Shown here in pieces: positions 2,897 to 18,194 of a DNA stretch of 64,000 nucleotides (positions within the stretch are counted from its first letter, which is position 1; the number at the start of each line of letters is the position of its first letter). Origin of the DNA: Gammaproteobacteria bacterium (GTDB taxonomy: Bacteria > Pseudomonadota > Gammaproteobacteria > GCA-001735895). Position numbers and translations under genes: made by a program. The notes under the pieces are model-generated. The model was not told where the DNA came from. It was given only the letters and a program-made list of their open reading frames with translations, and made no database searches. The DNA lies in the NCBI GenBank assembly GCA_029862005.1, contig JAOTYD010000020.1:1-64000 (forward strand), written 5' to 3'.

Positions 2897-2923
2897 GGTC
2901 ATTGCGAACGAAGCGAAGCAATG
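2897..2923. repeat. short palindromic repeat with CATTGC/GCAATG ends
   Basis: The stretch GTCATTGCGAACGAAGCGAA runs into GCAATG, so its ends are inverted (CATTGC...GCAATG). It closely resembles a short dispersed element I know from many unrelated bacterial genomes. It fills the gap just before the next gene's ATG and makes an upstream in-frame TTG unlikely as a start. Confidence 0.5.
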
Positions 2924-2925
2924 TG

Positions 2926-4128
2926 ATGAATAAAATCCTCCTCAAGTCCATTGCGACGATTACCTTCCTGCTCTCGGCGCTCGTCGCCGAGACAGGAAGG
3001 GCTTCTTGGGATGTCTCGTCAAACATCGACCTGACCACGCGCATATTCACCGAGGAAACGCGTTGGCCCGGCCAGGACGACACGACGTCGCAACTGTCAA
3101 TCGCCGGCTCGACCGAGTTTCGCTGGCGCGGTGACGAATCGCGCGCGTCGATCATCCCCTATCTGCGCTACGACGAAACCGACGACGAACGCTCGCTCGC
3201 CGACCTGCGCGAGGCTTACTGGGCGAAAGAGGCGGAAAGCTTCGAACTACTCATCGGCGTCAATACCGTATTCTGGGGCGTCACCGAATCCGTACACCTG
3301 GTCGACATTGTCAACCAGACCGACGCCGTCGCCGACATCGACGGCGAAGACAAGCTCGGCCAGCCGATGATCAACCTCGAACTGCAGCGCGACTGGGGAT
3401 TGGTCAGCGTTTACGTATTGCCCTATTTCCGCGAACGCACTTTAGTGGGTGAAGACGGCCGCCTGCGCACCCCGCTGCCGGTCGACACCGACGACCCGCA
3501 TTACGAATCGTCAGCCGAAGAAACCCACGTCGACCTCGCACTGCGTTACAGCCACTACGTCGGCAGCGTCGACATCGGCGTCAGCGCCTTCAGCGGCACC
3601 AGCCGCGAAGCGAGACTGCTGCCGAACGCCAACGGCAGCGAACTAATCCCATTCTACGACCAAATCGACCAACTCGGCCTCGACCTGCAATACACCGGTG
3701 ACGCCTGGATATGGAAGTTAGAAGTCATCGCCCGTGAAACCCAAAACGATTCATTCACCGCGGCGGTGGGCGGCTTCGAATACACCTTTTACCAGGTGAC
3801 TGAATCAAACGCCGACGTCGGCGTGCTGCTCGAACTGCAATACGACGGCCGCGATGACGGAGAACCCGTAACGCTCGCCGATAATGACCTGTTCGCCGGC
3901 ATTCGCCTCGCGCTCAATGACACCCAGGACACCGCCGTACTCGCCGGCATGGGTTATGACCTGGAGACCAGCGAAACCTACGTCAATATCGAAGCCGACC
4001 GTCGCCTCGGCGATGACTATGTACTCGAACTGCGGGCACGCTTTTTCACCAATGTCGAGTCTGGCGATACCAGCCACGCAATCGAGAACGACGATTATCT
4101 GCAGTTGCAGTTAAGTCGGTATTTTTAG
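2926..4128 (+). CDS. outer membrane beta-barrel protein (DUF1302/alginate-export-like)
   Basis: About 400 residues with an N-terminal signal peptide (MNKILLKSIATITFLLSALV, cleavage near GRA-S). The rest is a long series of alternating amphipathic strands rich in aromatic girdle residues, with many acidic loops. It ends in YLQLQLSRYF, the terminal aromatic typical of proteins inserted by the Bam machinery. I place the start at the ATG at 2926; an in-frame TTG at 2902 lies inside the preceding repeat and would put charged residues before the signal peptide. With the MMPL exporter and LolA-like protein upstream it probably completes a trans-envelope export route. The exact barrel family is less certain than the localisation. 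Confidence 0.72.
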   Translation: MNKILLKSIATITFLLSALVAETGRASWDVSSNIDLTTRIFTEETRWPGQDDTTSQLSIAGSTEFRWRGDESRASIIPYLRYDETDDERSLADLREAYWAKEAESFELLIGVNTVFWGVTESVHLVDIVNQTDAVADIDGEDKLGQPMINLELQRDWGLVSVYVLPYFRERTLVGEDGRLRTPLPVDTDDPHYESSAEETHVDLALRYSHYVGSVDIGVSAFSGTSREARLLPNANGSELIPFYDQIDQLGLDLQYTGDAWIWKLEVIARETQNDSFTAAVGGFEYTFYQVTESNADVGVLLELQYDGRDDGEPVTLADNDLFAGIRLALNDTQDTAVLAGMGYDLETSETYVNIEADRRLGDDYVLELRARFFTNVESGDTSHAIENDDYLQLQLSRYF

Positions 4129-4271: not shown

Positions 4272-4304
4272 AATAGTTATCGATTCAATTAATCGATAAC
4301 TATT
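4272..4304. promoter_or_regulatory. perfect 14-bp inverted repeat next to a -10-like box
   Basis: AATAGTTATCGATT (4272-4285) and its exact reverse complement (4291-4304) are separated by CAATT. Five bases later comes TATAAT (4309-4314), a consensus -10 box. There is no run of T, so a terminator is unlikely. An operator overlapping the -35 region of a promoter that reads into the cassette array is the simplest idea. It could also be part of a degenerate integration site. Confidence 0.45.
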
Positions 4305-4341
4305 CGGGTATAATCGTATTCAAGTTTTTGTGAGGGAATAC

Positions 4342-4425
4342 ATGCACTTATCTAAATTACAAAATTCACTCGCCGATAATCGGTTCAACCCTCTAATATA
4401 TATTAAAAGGTCGAAGACCTTTTAA
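4342..4425 (+). CDS. 27-residue open frame ahead of the cassettes
   Basis: ATG follows a GAGGG motif at six bases and lies about 28 bases after the TATAAT box. The frame encodes a short, mostly polar peptide. Its last codons and stop fall inside a 10-bp-stem hairpin (TTAAAAGGTC, loop GAA, GACCTTTTAA at 4403-4425). It could be a leader-type peptide for the cassette promoter or a chance frame. No homology is recognised. Confidence 0.25.
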   Translation: MHLSKLQNSLADNRFNPLIYIKRSKTF

Positions 4426-4456
4426 ATGAGCTGTTATGCGGATTAACTAAACGACA

Positions 4457-4771
4457 ATGAAAGAGGCAGATTGGAAGATTTTTAAAGAGATCAAAGAGAA
4501 AGCGCTTGGATCCTTCTGTGAAAATGCTTTTTCTGAATTCACGGAGATTATCGAAAACGAAAGTGAACATATTCACGATAGATATCTTAAGCTGTATAAA
4601 CTCGTTCATGAAAAAGACAAAGAATTAAGCGACATTTTTGATGGTCATAGCCGGTCAAAAGCAGCATTCCAATTACTATTAATCCGAAAAATGGGATTGG
4701 CGGATAAGGGTTTATTGCAAAAGATATCTGACGAGTTTGCCGAAGAAACCGATCCAGGGAGGTTACGTTGA
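4457..4771 (+). CDS. cassette 1 protein, unknown function
   Basis: A 104-residue, highly charged and mostly helical cytoplasmic protein with no signal peptide, no membrane segment and no motif that I recognise. Two amphipathic helical stretches (about residues 20-45 and 65-95) suggest a small all-alpha fold. The ATG lies 16 bases after the cassette boundary, as is usual for cassette genes, and the stop precedes the attC by five bases. Cassette genes of this size include toxins, antitoxins and phage-defence factors, but nothing in the sequence selects one of these. Base composition is clearly AT-richer than in the surrounding operons. Confidence 0.7.
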   Translation: MKEADWKIFKEIKEKALGSFCENAFSEFTEIIENESEHIHDRYLKLYKLVHEKDKELSDIFDGHSRSKAAFQLLLIRKMGLADKGLLQKISDEFAEETDPGRLR

Positions 4772-4776
4772 AGAAT

Positions 4777-4853
4777 CCGCATAACAAGGGCATGCAGACG
4801 GATCTCCGCAAGCGCTACACGCATGCTCCGGCCGCTGATGCGAGGCGTTATGT
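4777..4853 (+). other. attC recombination site 1
   Basis: Starts CCGCATAAC and ends GCGTTATGTG. The inner half-sites pair as an imperfect hairpin (CATGCAG...CTGATGCG). It carries the GTTATGT core where the integrase cuts. Confidence 0.82.
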
Positions 4854-4886
4854 GTTATTTACAAAATCAAAGTATCGGAGCCTACT

Positions 4887-5309
4887 ATGTCAGAGTTAAT
4901 CGAAGCGAAAGGATCTTGTCTTTGTGGTGCCATTCGTTTTACTGCTAGGAAAGTTAGTAAAAGTGTAGGCGCCTGCCATTGCGGCATGTGCAGGAAATGG
5001 GGGGGCGGACCGTTGATGGCAGTTAATTCTGGCAGCGATGTATCATTCGAAGGAGAAGAAAATATATCGGTATACGATTCTTCGGCTTGGGCGGAACGAG
5101 GTTTCTGTAAACAATGCGGAAGCCATCTATTTTATCGGTTGAAAGAAAGCAACCAGCACATTATTCCGGCTGGTCTTTTCGAAAATCAGAAGTCTTTTGT
5201 TTTCGATAATCAAGTTTTTATAGATAAAAAGCCTTCGTTCTACAGCTTCGCAAATAAGACAAATGACATGACCGAAGCTGAGGTTTTCGAAAAGTATGGC
5301 GCATCATAA
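4887..5309 (+). CDS. cassette 2: GFA (CENP-V)-family zinc protein
   Basis: A 140-residue protein of the glutathione-dependent formaldehyde-activating (GFA/CENP-V) fold. The zinc ligands are all visible: CLCGAIRF near residue 10, the CHCGMCRKWGGGP block near residues 31-43 and CKQCGSHLFYR near residues 76-86. Family members bind one or two zinc ions; some act in C1 or sulfur-adduct metabolism, but many are uncharacterised, so the formaldehyde label should not be taken as a function. ATG follows an AGCCTACT spacer after GGAG. GFA-type genes are a common type of passenger in environmental integron cassettes, which fits the attC sites on both sides. Confidence 0.85.
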   Translation: MSELIEAKGSCLCGAIRFTARKVSKSVGACHCGMCRKWGGGPLMAVNSGSDVSFEGEENISVYDSSAWAERGFCKQCGSHLFYRLKESNQHIIPAGLFENQKSFVFDNQVFIDKKPSFYSFANKTNDMTEAEVFEKYGAS

Positions 5310-5312
5310 AAA

Positions 5313-5387
5313 AACACATAACAAGGCGCTGCAGTCGGATCGCCAAATCGCTACGCGGTTCGGCGACCGTTGAGCGCAGCGTTATAA
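5313..5387 (+). other. attC recombination site 2
   Basis: AACACATAAC opens the site and GTTATAA closes it. The interior CTGCAG...GCGCAGC supplies the hairpin half-sites. The first ten bases pair exactly with the 5' end of cassette 2. Confidence 0.82.
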
Positions 5388-5402
5388 GGCATTTGGAGAA
5401 TC

Positions 5403-5768
5403 ATGAATTACAAAGCATTAAATTTTAAAGAAAAACTTTCTCTCTTTAACGAGCAATGGACACCTAAAGTTATTGCGGAGATGAATGATTATCAATTCAA
5501 GATCGTAAAAATTAAAGGTGACTTCGTATGGCATGACCACGAGGACACGGACGAAACCTTCATTGTCTTGGAAGGAAATCTTCGCATAGATTTTAGGGAT
5601 GGCCAGGTAGAACTGACGGATGGGGAAATGTTTGTCGTACCCAAAGGTGTAGAACATAAGCCCTATGCTGAAGAAGAGGTGAAAATGCTTTTAATTGAAC
5701 CGCGAGGAGTAAAGAACACTGGGGATAAAGGTGGCGAACTTACCGCGGAAAATGATGTATGGATTTAA
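5403..5768 (+). CDS. cassette 3: single-domain cupin protein
   Basis: A 121-residue small cupin. Cupin motif 1 is visible as the HDHEDTDETFIVLEG segment (around residues 41-55), with two His and one Glu as metal ligands. Motif 2 is the MFVVPKGVEHKPYAE segment (around residues 80-94), with the last His ligand. Such proteins bind a divalent metal in a beta-barrel; roles range from isomerases to sensors, and none can be chosen here. ATG follows GGAGA by four bases. The gene lies entirely within one integron cassette and ends at the attC, so it was probably acquired together with that site. Confidence 0.85.
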   Translation: MNYKALNFKEKLSLFNEQWTPKVIAEMNDYQFKIVKIKGDFVWHDHEDTDETFIVLEGNLRIDFRDGQVELTDGEMFVVPKGVEHKPYAEEEVKMLLIEPRGVKNTGDKGGELTAENDVWI

Positions 5769-5833
5769 TGCCTTATAACAAGCGCATGCAGTCGGGCGCG
5801 GCAGAGCCGCGCCGCTGATGCGAGGCGTTATGA
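5767..5833 (+). other. attC recombination site 3
   Basis: AATGCCTTATAAC is exactly complementary to the start of cassette 3. The site ends GCGTTATGA, and its internal CTGATGCGAGGCGTTATG is shared with attC 1. This is the last site of the array. The first base of its stop-side half overlaps the end of the cupin gene. Confidence 0.8.
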
Positions 5834-5850
5834 ATAATAGGAAAATATTA

Positions 5851-5915
5851 GGGGATAGACCAGGTTTATTTCACCGTCCGAATAGCAATCGAGCTAATCG
5901 TGGTCTGTCCCCTAT
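5851..5915. repeat. type B palindromic element
   Basis: Arms GGGGATAGACCA and TGGTCTGTCCCC, about 40 bases apart, form an inverted pair immediately after the last attC. Confidence 0.7.
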
Positions 5916-5945: not shown

Positions 5946-6638
5946 TTACAAGGCGGCTTGCAAATGACGTACCGGGTCCATTGCCCGCCCATCTCTACGG
6001 AACTCGAAATGCACGTGATAGCCGGTCGCATTGCCGGACCTGCCGACTGTAGCAATTATTGCTCCCTGCTGCACGCGCTGACCTCGCTGTACCATATTTC
6101 GTTGATTGTGCGCGTACGCGGTTTCAATGCCACCACCGTGATCGATGACAATCATATGACCATAGCCGCGATTGTAGCCGGAGTATTTGACCCTGCCCGC
6201 GGCCGATGCGCGAATCTGTGTTCCGCGCGCCGCGCGTAAGTCAATACCGGCATGCATGCGTCCACGGCGGCGACCAAAATGCGACGAAATCTCAAACCTG
6301 GCGAGCGGCCAGATGAAATCGGAGCGCCGGAGCTGACTGTCTAAATGCGCGTTCGATTGATCCGCCTGCTGGTTAGCATCGCCGTACGCATAATGGCTGT
6401 GCGGTGAAGCGTCAGGTATTACAAGCTGTGTGCCAGGCTCTATATATAACGGATCAACCCACGGATTGGCGTGGCGCAATTGCCCGGGTGTGACTTCGAG
6501 CGCAAAGGCGATGGAGTGGATGTTGTCATTCGACTTTACGGAATAGTAATTTGGCGATGGTCGCTCGCTATACGGCTGAAACGGGGCGCAGCCGAAAACT
6601 GTAACAACCGTCGTCAATACAAACAGAACTTTCAACAT
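5946..6638 (-). CDS. LysM/M23 murein-hydrolase-type lipoprotein (NlpD-like)
   Basis: Envelope protein of about 230 residues. The start is set at an internal ATG because it then begins with a lipoprotein signal (MLKVLFVLTTVVTVFGC, lipid-modified Cys at residue 16), so it is probably anchored in a membrane facing the periplasm. One LysM domain follows (YYSVKSNDNIHSIAFALEV to LVIP), which binds peptidoglycan. The C-terminal M23 peptidase domain contains the HAGIDLRA motif and the late HVHFEFR motif, giving the zinc ligands H-x3-D and H-x-H, so it may be an active endopeptidase. NlpD of E. coli has lost these residues and only activates amidases; here they look intact. It is transcribed divergently from the YbaK-type gene. 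Confidence 0.88.
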   Translation of the reverse strand: MLKVLFVLTTVVTVFGCAPFQPYSERPSPNYYSVKSNDNIHSIAFALEVTPGQLRHANPWVDPLYIEPGTQLVIPDASPHSHYAYGDANQQADQSNAHLDSQLRRSDFIWPLARFEISSHFGRRRGRMHAGIDLRAARGTQIRASAAGRVKYSGYNRGYGHMIVIDHGGGIETAYAHNQRNMVQRGQRVQQGAIIATVGRSGNATGYHVHFEFRRDGRAMDPVRHLQAAL

Positions 6639-6761
6639 AGCATGCGTTCCGGCGGTGATTCGAGAACGAATGAAGTACTCTGATTGTACCAATTATAAAT
6701 GAACATTCGCTTAATCGCTCAGCGCGCCAATTAGTAAAAAAATAAAGTTAATCTAACTAGT

Positions 6762-18139: not shown

Positions 18140-18194
18140 AGGGGACAGACCACGCTTTCCTAAGCATTAAACTATAAACGTGGTCTGTCCCCTT
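18140..18194. repeat. type B palindromic element (intact)
   Basis: AGGGGACAGACCACG and CGTGGTCTGTCCCCT form perfect 15-base arms around a 25-base loop. It lies downstream of both flanking genes and could also stop transcription from either side. Confidence 0.85.

Follow-up and report, generated by a model that had tools for sequence, protein, structure and literature searches.

What could have placed three gene cassettes in a chromosomal region that has no integrase beside it, and might such an array still be in use? The question is raised by a 64,000-nucleotide stretch of gammaproteobacterial DNA, here called the window, which lies on contig C20 (JAOTYD010000020.1) of a 3.99-Mb draft genome of 105 contigs (GCA_029862005.1). 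A first-pass annotation, made from the sequence alone, had described the cassettes as an integrase-free array with recent-looking attC sites, a cluster of attC sites lacking integron integrases (CALIN), and had supposed that an integrase either acts in trans or has been lost. We found that the array begins at a copy of the attI site that lies beside an intact integrase gene, intI, on another contig (C1) of the same genome. With a probability of about 60%, we consider the array to be a CALIN headed by attI and a satellite platform of the genome's integron, on which the C1 integrase probably acts in trans.

The cassettes and the attI copy at their head

The three cassettes occupy positions 4434-5827, all in one orientation on the forward strand and each closed by an attC site, with G/TT crossovers at 4433/4434, 4847/4848, 5381/5382 and 5827/5828. 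Cassette 1 (4434-4847), which starts at the crossover G4433/T4434, contains an open reading frame (ORF) at 4457-4771, whose 104-amino-acid product had no Pfam or NCBIfam match, and attC 1 (4779-4853). Cassette 2 (4848-5381) encodes a GFA-domain protein of 140 amino acids (4887-5309; PF04828 in Pfam, 2.3e-17) before attC 2 (5316-5387), and cassette 3 (5382-5827) a cupin of 121 amino acids (5403-5768; Cupin_2 in Pfam, 3e-13) before attC 3 (5773-5833). These passengers agree with the unknown, GFA and cupin genes named earlier. One weak PADLOC match of the cassette 1 protein to Csm2 (0.0084) was taken as chance.

Counted from TT, the first 11, 9 and 12 bases of cassettes 1, 2 and 3 (12, 10 and 13 with the G) pair without mismatch with the beginning of the cassette's own attC, of which they are the reverse complement. 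Runs of 9, 10 and 13 had been given before; the second and third hold when the G is included, while the first measures 12. For the three window cassettes and five on C1, own-pair runs were 12, 7, 5, 9, 11, 11, 9 and 12, compared with a mean of 4.0 and a maximum of 7 among the 56 non-own pairings of the same eight cassettes, so that in the window every own run exceeds all non-own ones. Because such complementarity shows intactness and not age, the cassettes are indeed intact, whereas the description "recent-looking" is weakly supported. Folded as bottom-strand single-stranded DNA, attC 2 (z -3.7) and attC 3 (z -3.2) were better than dinucleotide shuffles. No match at the Rfam gathering score occurred within the window. 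As in other CALINs, whose genomes may hold a complete integron elsewhere, there are at least two attC sites (three here) and no adjacent intI, and the label therefore stands; the genome's seven TIGR02249 matches are all on other contigs.

Unlike standard CALINs, the window array is headed by an attI site, which the first-pass annotation had missed. Its core (4393-4438, forward strand) is identical at 44 of 46 bases to the attI between intI and the first cassette on C1, and the cassettes are inserted at its G/TT, cassette 1 starting at T4434. The copy belongs to a module whose left edge is a palindrome, AATAGTTATCGATT-N5-AATCGATAACTATT (4272-4304), where homology to the C1 integron starts. Between palindrome and core, 66 of 115 aligned bases (57%) are identical to C1; left of the palindrome only 45 of 109 (41%) are, and this stretch was taken as lacking homology. 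An attI hairpin, TTAAAAGGTC-GAA-GACCTTTTAA (4403-4425), of 23 bases and ten pairs, precedes the crossover. Its exact 19-mer occurs at only two places in the genome, the window and the C1 attI; with up to three mismatches it was also found at both places on the other strand and at two further loci, each with three mismatches.

This left boundary bears on two other explanations. Cassettes may be placed off target in a non-classical chromosomal site, attG, which is a known route to CALINs in the excerpts available of two papers (PMC8618304; PMC12444791). The left boundary of an attG is neither attI nor attC; here, in place of a bare GTT, stands an almost identical copy of the resident attI, complete with leader ORF and hairpin, and at the 11 intI-linked sites of the family the same motif is 92-170 bp away from the intI frame that was matched. 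Since the array starts at this copy, plain off-target insertion is the least credible of the explanations considered. Slightly less improbable, and still very improbable, is that a piece of the C1 array was joined to the wrong contig. Cassette arrays do break draft assemblies, as stated in the accessible part of PMC9024848, and contig C1 starts inside its array. However, the two attI modules differ at 2 of 46 bases and then at 49 of the next 115 aligned bases, and are therefore not one repeat placed twice; moreover, unique flanks lie on both sides of the array within one contig.

A leader ORF of 27 codons (4342-4425, forward strand; ATG to TAA, with GAGG upstream) runs through the hairpin and stops 31 bases short of the cassette 1 start codon. 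GGAG precedes the ORFs of cassettes 2 and 3, and no Shine-Dalgarno signal was seen before that of cassette 1. In the 45-base stretch that precedes the conserved motif, anchored on the model alignment, the leader frame was without a stop in 39 of 46 attI copies of the family, compared with 21 and 16 for the other frames; an earlier, weak test with a loose anchor had the leader frame in 25 of 42 copies and the other two in 18 and 19. A short ORF with a ribosome-binding site within attI, directly upstream of the first cassette, recalls ORF-11 and ORF-17 of attI1 (PMC8876359, in part). By this analogy, the leader may feed ribosomes to cassette 1. The window leader, with its 27 codons, differs from ORF-11, which takes its stop codon from the cassette (same excerpt), in being unrelated in sequence and in stopping before the crossover. 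TATAAT (4309-4314, forward strand) may be the -10 box of a cassette promoter; no -35 element was found with it, and a consensus promoter scan yielded no complete promoter.

The integrase on contig C1

A full-length, intact intI is located at C1:3728-4675 (TIGR02249, 431.8 bits; cut-off 265). Its product aligns with the solved IntI4 structure 2a3v over 318 residues (358 bits), including the segments GLR, LRHSFATH and IYTHV, which we take to hold the catalytic residues. Beside this gene, on the opposite strand, attI and five attC sites reach the contig start; thus intI beside attI and cassettes, the composition of a complete integron that the window array lacks, is present on C1, and the locus is syntenic in four genomes. 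The attC sites of the window and C1 form one family with common R and L boxes. An attC model (R2) was built on 12 sites that include the three of the window, which therefore score by construction, and the five of C1. Over the genome it gave 20 matches at E <= 0.1: five on C1, three in the window and 12 elsewhere, the last group led by matches on C7 (83 bits), C26 (53) and C56 (47.5). The term "integrase-free" is right for the surroundings of the array and wrong for the genome, and action in trans has a candidate in the C1 integrase.

Insertion of cassettes by attC x attI recombination is the established general mechanism of integrons. In the window, three cassettes stand behind a second attI module, made up of palindrome, leader ORF, hairpin and crossover. 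Most probably the C1 integrase acts in trans on this attI; a folded bottom-strand attC would pair with the double-stranded attI, and the cassette would be inserted at G4433/T4434, the newest first. Intact intI, matching attI, matching attC sites and cassettes at the crossover are all present. That IntI acts on the window attI, and that the site continues to be used, we infer.

Integrase-free attI sites in the family

A profile (R1) of 13 attI sequences, searched against 41 genomes of the family, gave 47 matches in 24 of them at E <= 0.01, and 47 were recovered in the extracted loci; outside the family it matched 3 of 183 genomes. An intI of at least 295 amino acids lay upstream of 11 sites (C1 and sites in G001, G002, G013, G014, G018, G020, G023, G025, G035 and G057), a partial one of 29, 47 or 62 amino acids upstream of three (one at a contig end), and none upstream of 33. 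For 28 of these 33, at least 1.2 kb of upstream sequence was present, of which up to 3.5 kb was inspected. The 28 sites belong to 16 genomes, some with several each, and 12 score at least 60 bits; G023:C56 supplies two, the second inside its array. An attC was found within 1.7 kb downstream of 13. Six genomes contain both intI-linked and integrase-free attI sites. In the window's genome, C66 carries one more match (52 bits), in which the crossover is altered, and C7 and C17 carry partial matches. Relatives with many integrase-free attI sites suggest that several cassette platforms may share a single integrase at the same time.

The large ORFs closest upstream of these 28 sites show no relation to one another, except for the pair G001:C85 and G023:C231, both downstream of a gene that we presume to be apbE-like. 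Among the 14 closest orthologues of that locus, G001 and G023 carry attI, of different subtypes. In G006, an attI-like sequence downstream of the same gene (L287 2555-2635; 20.7 bits, E 0.06), where G001 has an intact attI and cassettes, is probably a decayed relic; the other 11 orthologues gave no R1 match at E <= 1, and stretches in G018 and G028 are possibly homologous. A second class of attI-like sites was observed behind a dispersed repeat that contains GGGAGGCAATCTTCGGCCAGAAGCGGACGCT or a similar sequence, with several per genome (L248 7125-7256, L251 5026-5157, L250 2831-2992 and L143 2956-3192).

At its left edge, by the palindrome, the module repeatedly shows TTAT, to which most of the genus copies add a preceding G (GTTAT), and the module common to these copies starts there; the intI-linked copies extend leftward into the intI leader. 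Such an edge would fit a fragment that was cut out at a GTT-like core. Longer perfect palindrome arms (14, 14 and 16 bp) were seen in the window, G029 and G001:C52 (the latter two at L080 5645-5675 and L081 3476-3510), all at integrase-free modules and with locus-specific outer bases, while the arms of intI-linked copies reach 11 bp at most; confined to three loci, long arms are no general mark. The palindrome as an attC-like site was rejected on our own inspection, its core being in the wrong orientation.

A more serious alternative, to which we assign a low and yet appreciable likelihood, is that the array is a dead remnant of a second complete integron which lost intI by deletion, attI and cassettes being frozen leftovers. 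The partial intI beside 3 of 47 attI sites and the apparently decayed attI at the orthologous G006 site would fit such a history. However, tblastn with IntI gave no match in the window or upstream of the 28 integrase-free sites; the homology of the genus copies ends uniformly at the palindrome and not at scattered deletion ends; and the window attI core is intact at 44 of 46 bases amid diverged surroundings.

The hairpin covaries among the 47 copies, with 93.9% of cells paired (85.0% in shuffles) and 45 double changes (13.7 in shuffles). For the 33 intI-less copies alone the values were 93.6% (84.0%) and 36 (10.6), and none of 1000 shuffles reached the observed pairing or double changes; since the alignment was fitted to a model containing six of the ten pairs and the shuffles ignore relatedness, these figures are support and not probabilities.

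This limit is one of several points that weigh against a platform in use. As DNA, attC 1 folds no better than dinucleotide shuffles (z -0.29); it nevertheless carries the R and L boxes of the attC family. At 15 of the 28 integrase-free sites no attC was detected within 1.7 kb downstream; some of the 15 lie at contig ends, and at least 600 bp downstream was present for 23 of the 28. Conservation of attI could come from promoter or leader function instead of recombination. The closest GFA relative (89% identical, G027:C87) has no attC nearby, and the cupin relatives are mostly not cassette-borne, with attC near 1 of 11 loci, that of a distant relative, so that cassette 3 is without a demonstrated cassette history elsewhere. 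Besides, the compared genomes are all drafts, mostly metagenome-assembled among those with named records; the species is represented by a single strain, and no recombination event was observed.

On the other side, cassettes seem to move among arrays. The integrase-free arrays G001:C85 and G023:C56, of two species, have cassettes in common (90.8% over 337 bp and 87.7% over 309 bp), and 684 bp of G001:C85 align at 74.7% with the intI-linked C1 array of the window's genome. In G001:C60 the first cassette behind attI encodes a GFA protein 72% identical to that of cassette 2; this contig starts inside attI, so intI may be present there. GFA relatives were found at 11 loci, with attC in six and none in five, and cassette 1 had no relative among the 274 loci compared. 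The same three genes in the same order without attC, which would have told against the earlier reading, were not seen; in the three genomes with close relatives of both GFA and cupin the genes lie apart (G001 C60/C552; G003 C40/C16; G029, 313 kb on C1). The first cassette of G001:C85 (L122 1400-1935) has about 100 bp of a GFA cassette at its start joined to another gene and is a fused cassette; the second gene presumably resembles an XRE-type regulator.

Surroundings, precedents and meaning

To the left of the array, the gene at 2902-4128 gave no hit in Pfam, and on inspection its product resembles an outer-membrane protein; a paralogue 87% identical was noted on contig C34 of the same genome. 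To the right, an M23 peptidase gene lies on the opposite strand (5946-6692). Among five relatives of the porin gene and three of the M23 peptidase, compared on their downstream sides, none had both flanks together, so the insertion is undatable and its junction unreadable. An inverted-repeat element, GGGGAYAGACCA...TGGTCTGTCCCC, was observed at 5851-5912, just right of the array, and at 18141-18192; its 12-mer, with at most one mismatch, was counted 11 times in the window, where 0.14 occurrences would be expected.

CALINs, their mobilisation in trans and attG insertion are already known (PMC8618304; PMC12444791), and in Shewanella CALINs occur alongside intI in one genome (PMC9229058); these and the following papers are cited from excerpts. 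The C1 locus, with intI, attI and cassettes, resembles a sedentary chromosomal integron, unlike the window array, which has no integrase of its own. The one precedent that we found for an attI-headed CALIN is that of the Shewanella prophage M16-3, with a Shewanella-type attI (PMC9892861), and the window array is accordingly classed as a CALIN with attI. M16-3 is one case in one cryptic prophage, whereas the family's sites occur in 16 genomes, some with several, lie beside different ordinary genes and have a leader ORF as well as a hairpin that covaries. In the delta-attI cassettes of class 1 and class 2 integrons, attI also lies away from its canonical place; there, truncated attI ends replace attC within an array (PMC12901181), while the window has a complete attI module at the head of an array of its own. 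No published description of several integrase-free attI sites per genome was found in a search that lay outside most subscription journals and preprints.

Integrons are usually described as one integrase, one attI and one array, and integrase-free arrays as decay or off-target insertions. We tentatively suggest, as a possibility with the odds still against it, that the family's integron is a hub with spokes: one resident integrase and dispersed, transplantable attI modules of palindrome, leader, hairpin and crossover, which would be selected for cassette capture and expression beside different chromosomal genes. Two questions thereby become testable, namely whether one IntI serves several attI sites per genome and how attI spreads. 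Standard software, according to the part of PMC9024848 available, detects attI of class 1 only. If attI copies are indeed maintained at a distance from intI and serve in trans, many CALINs could therefore be working platforms with an attI that goes unnoticed.
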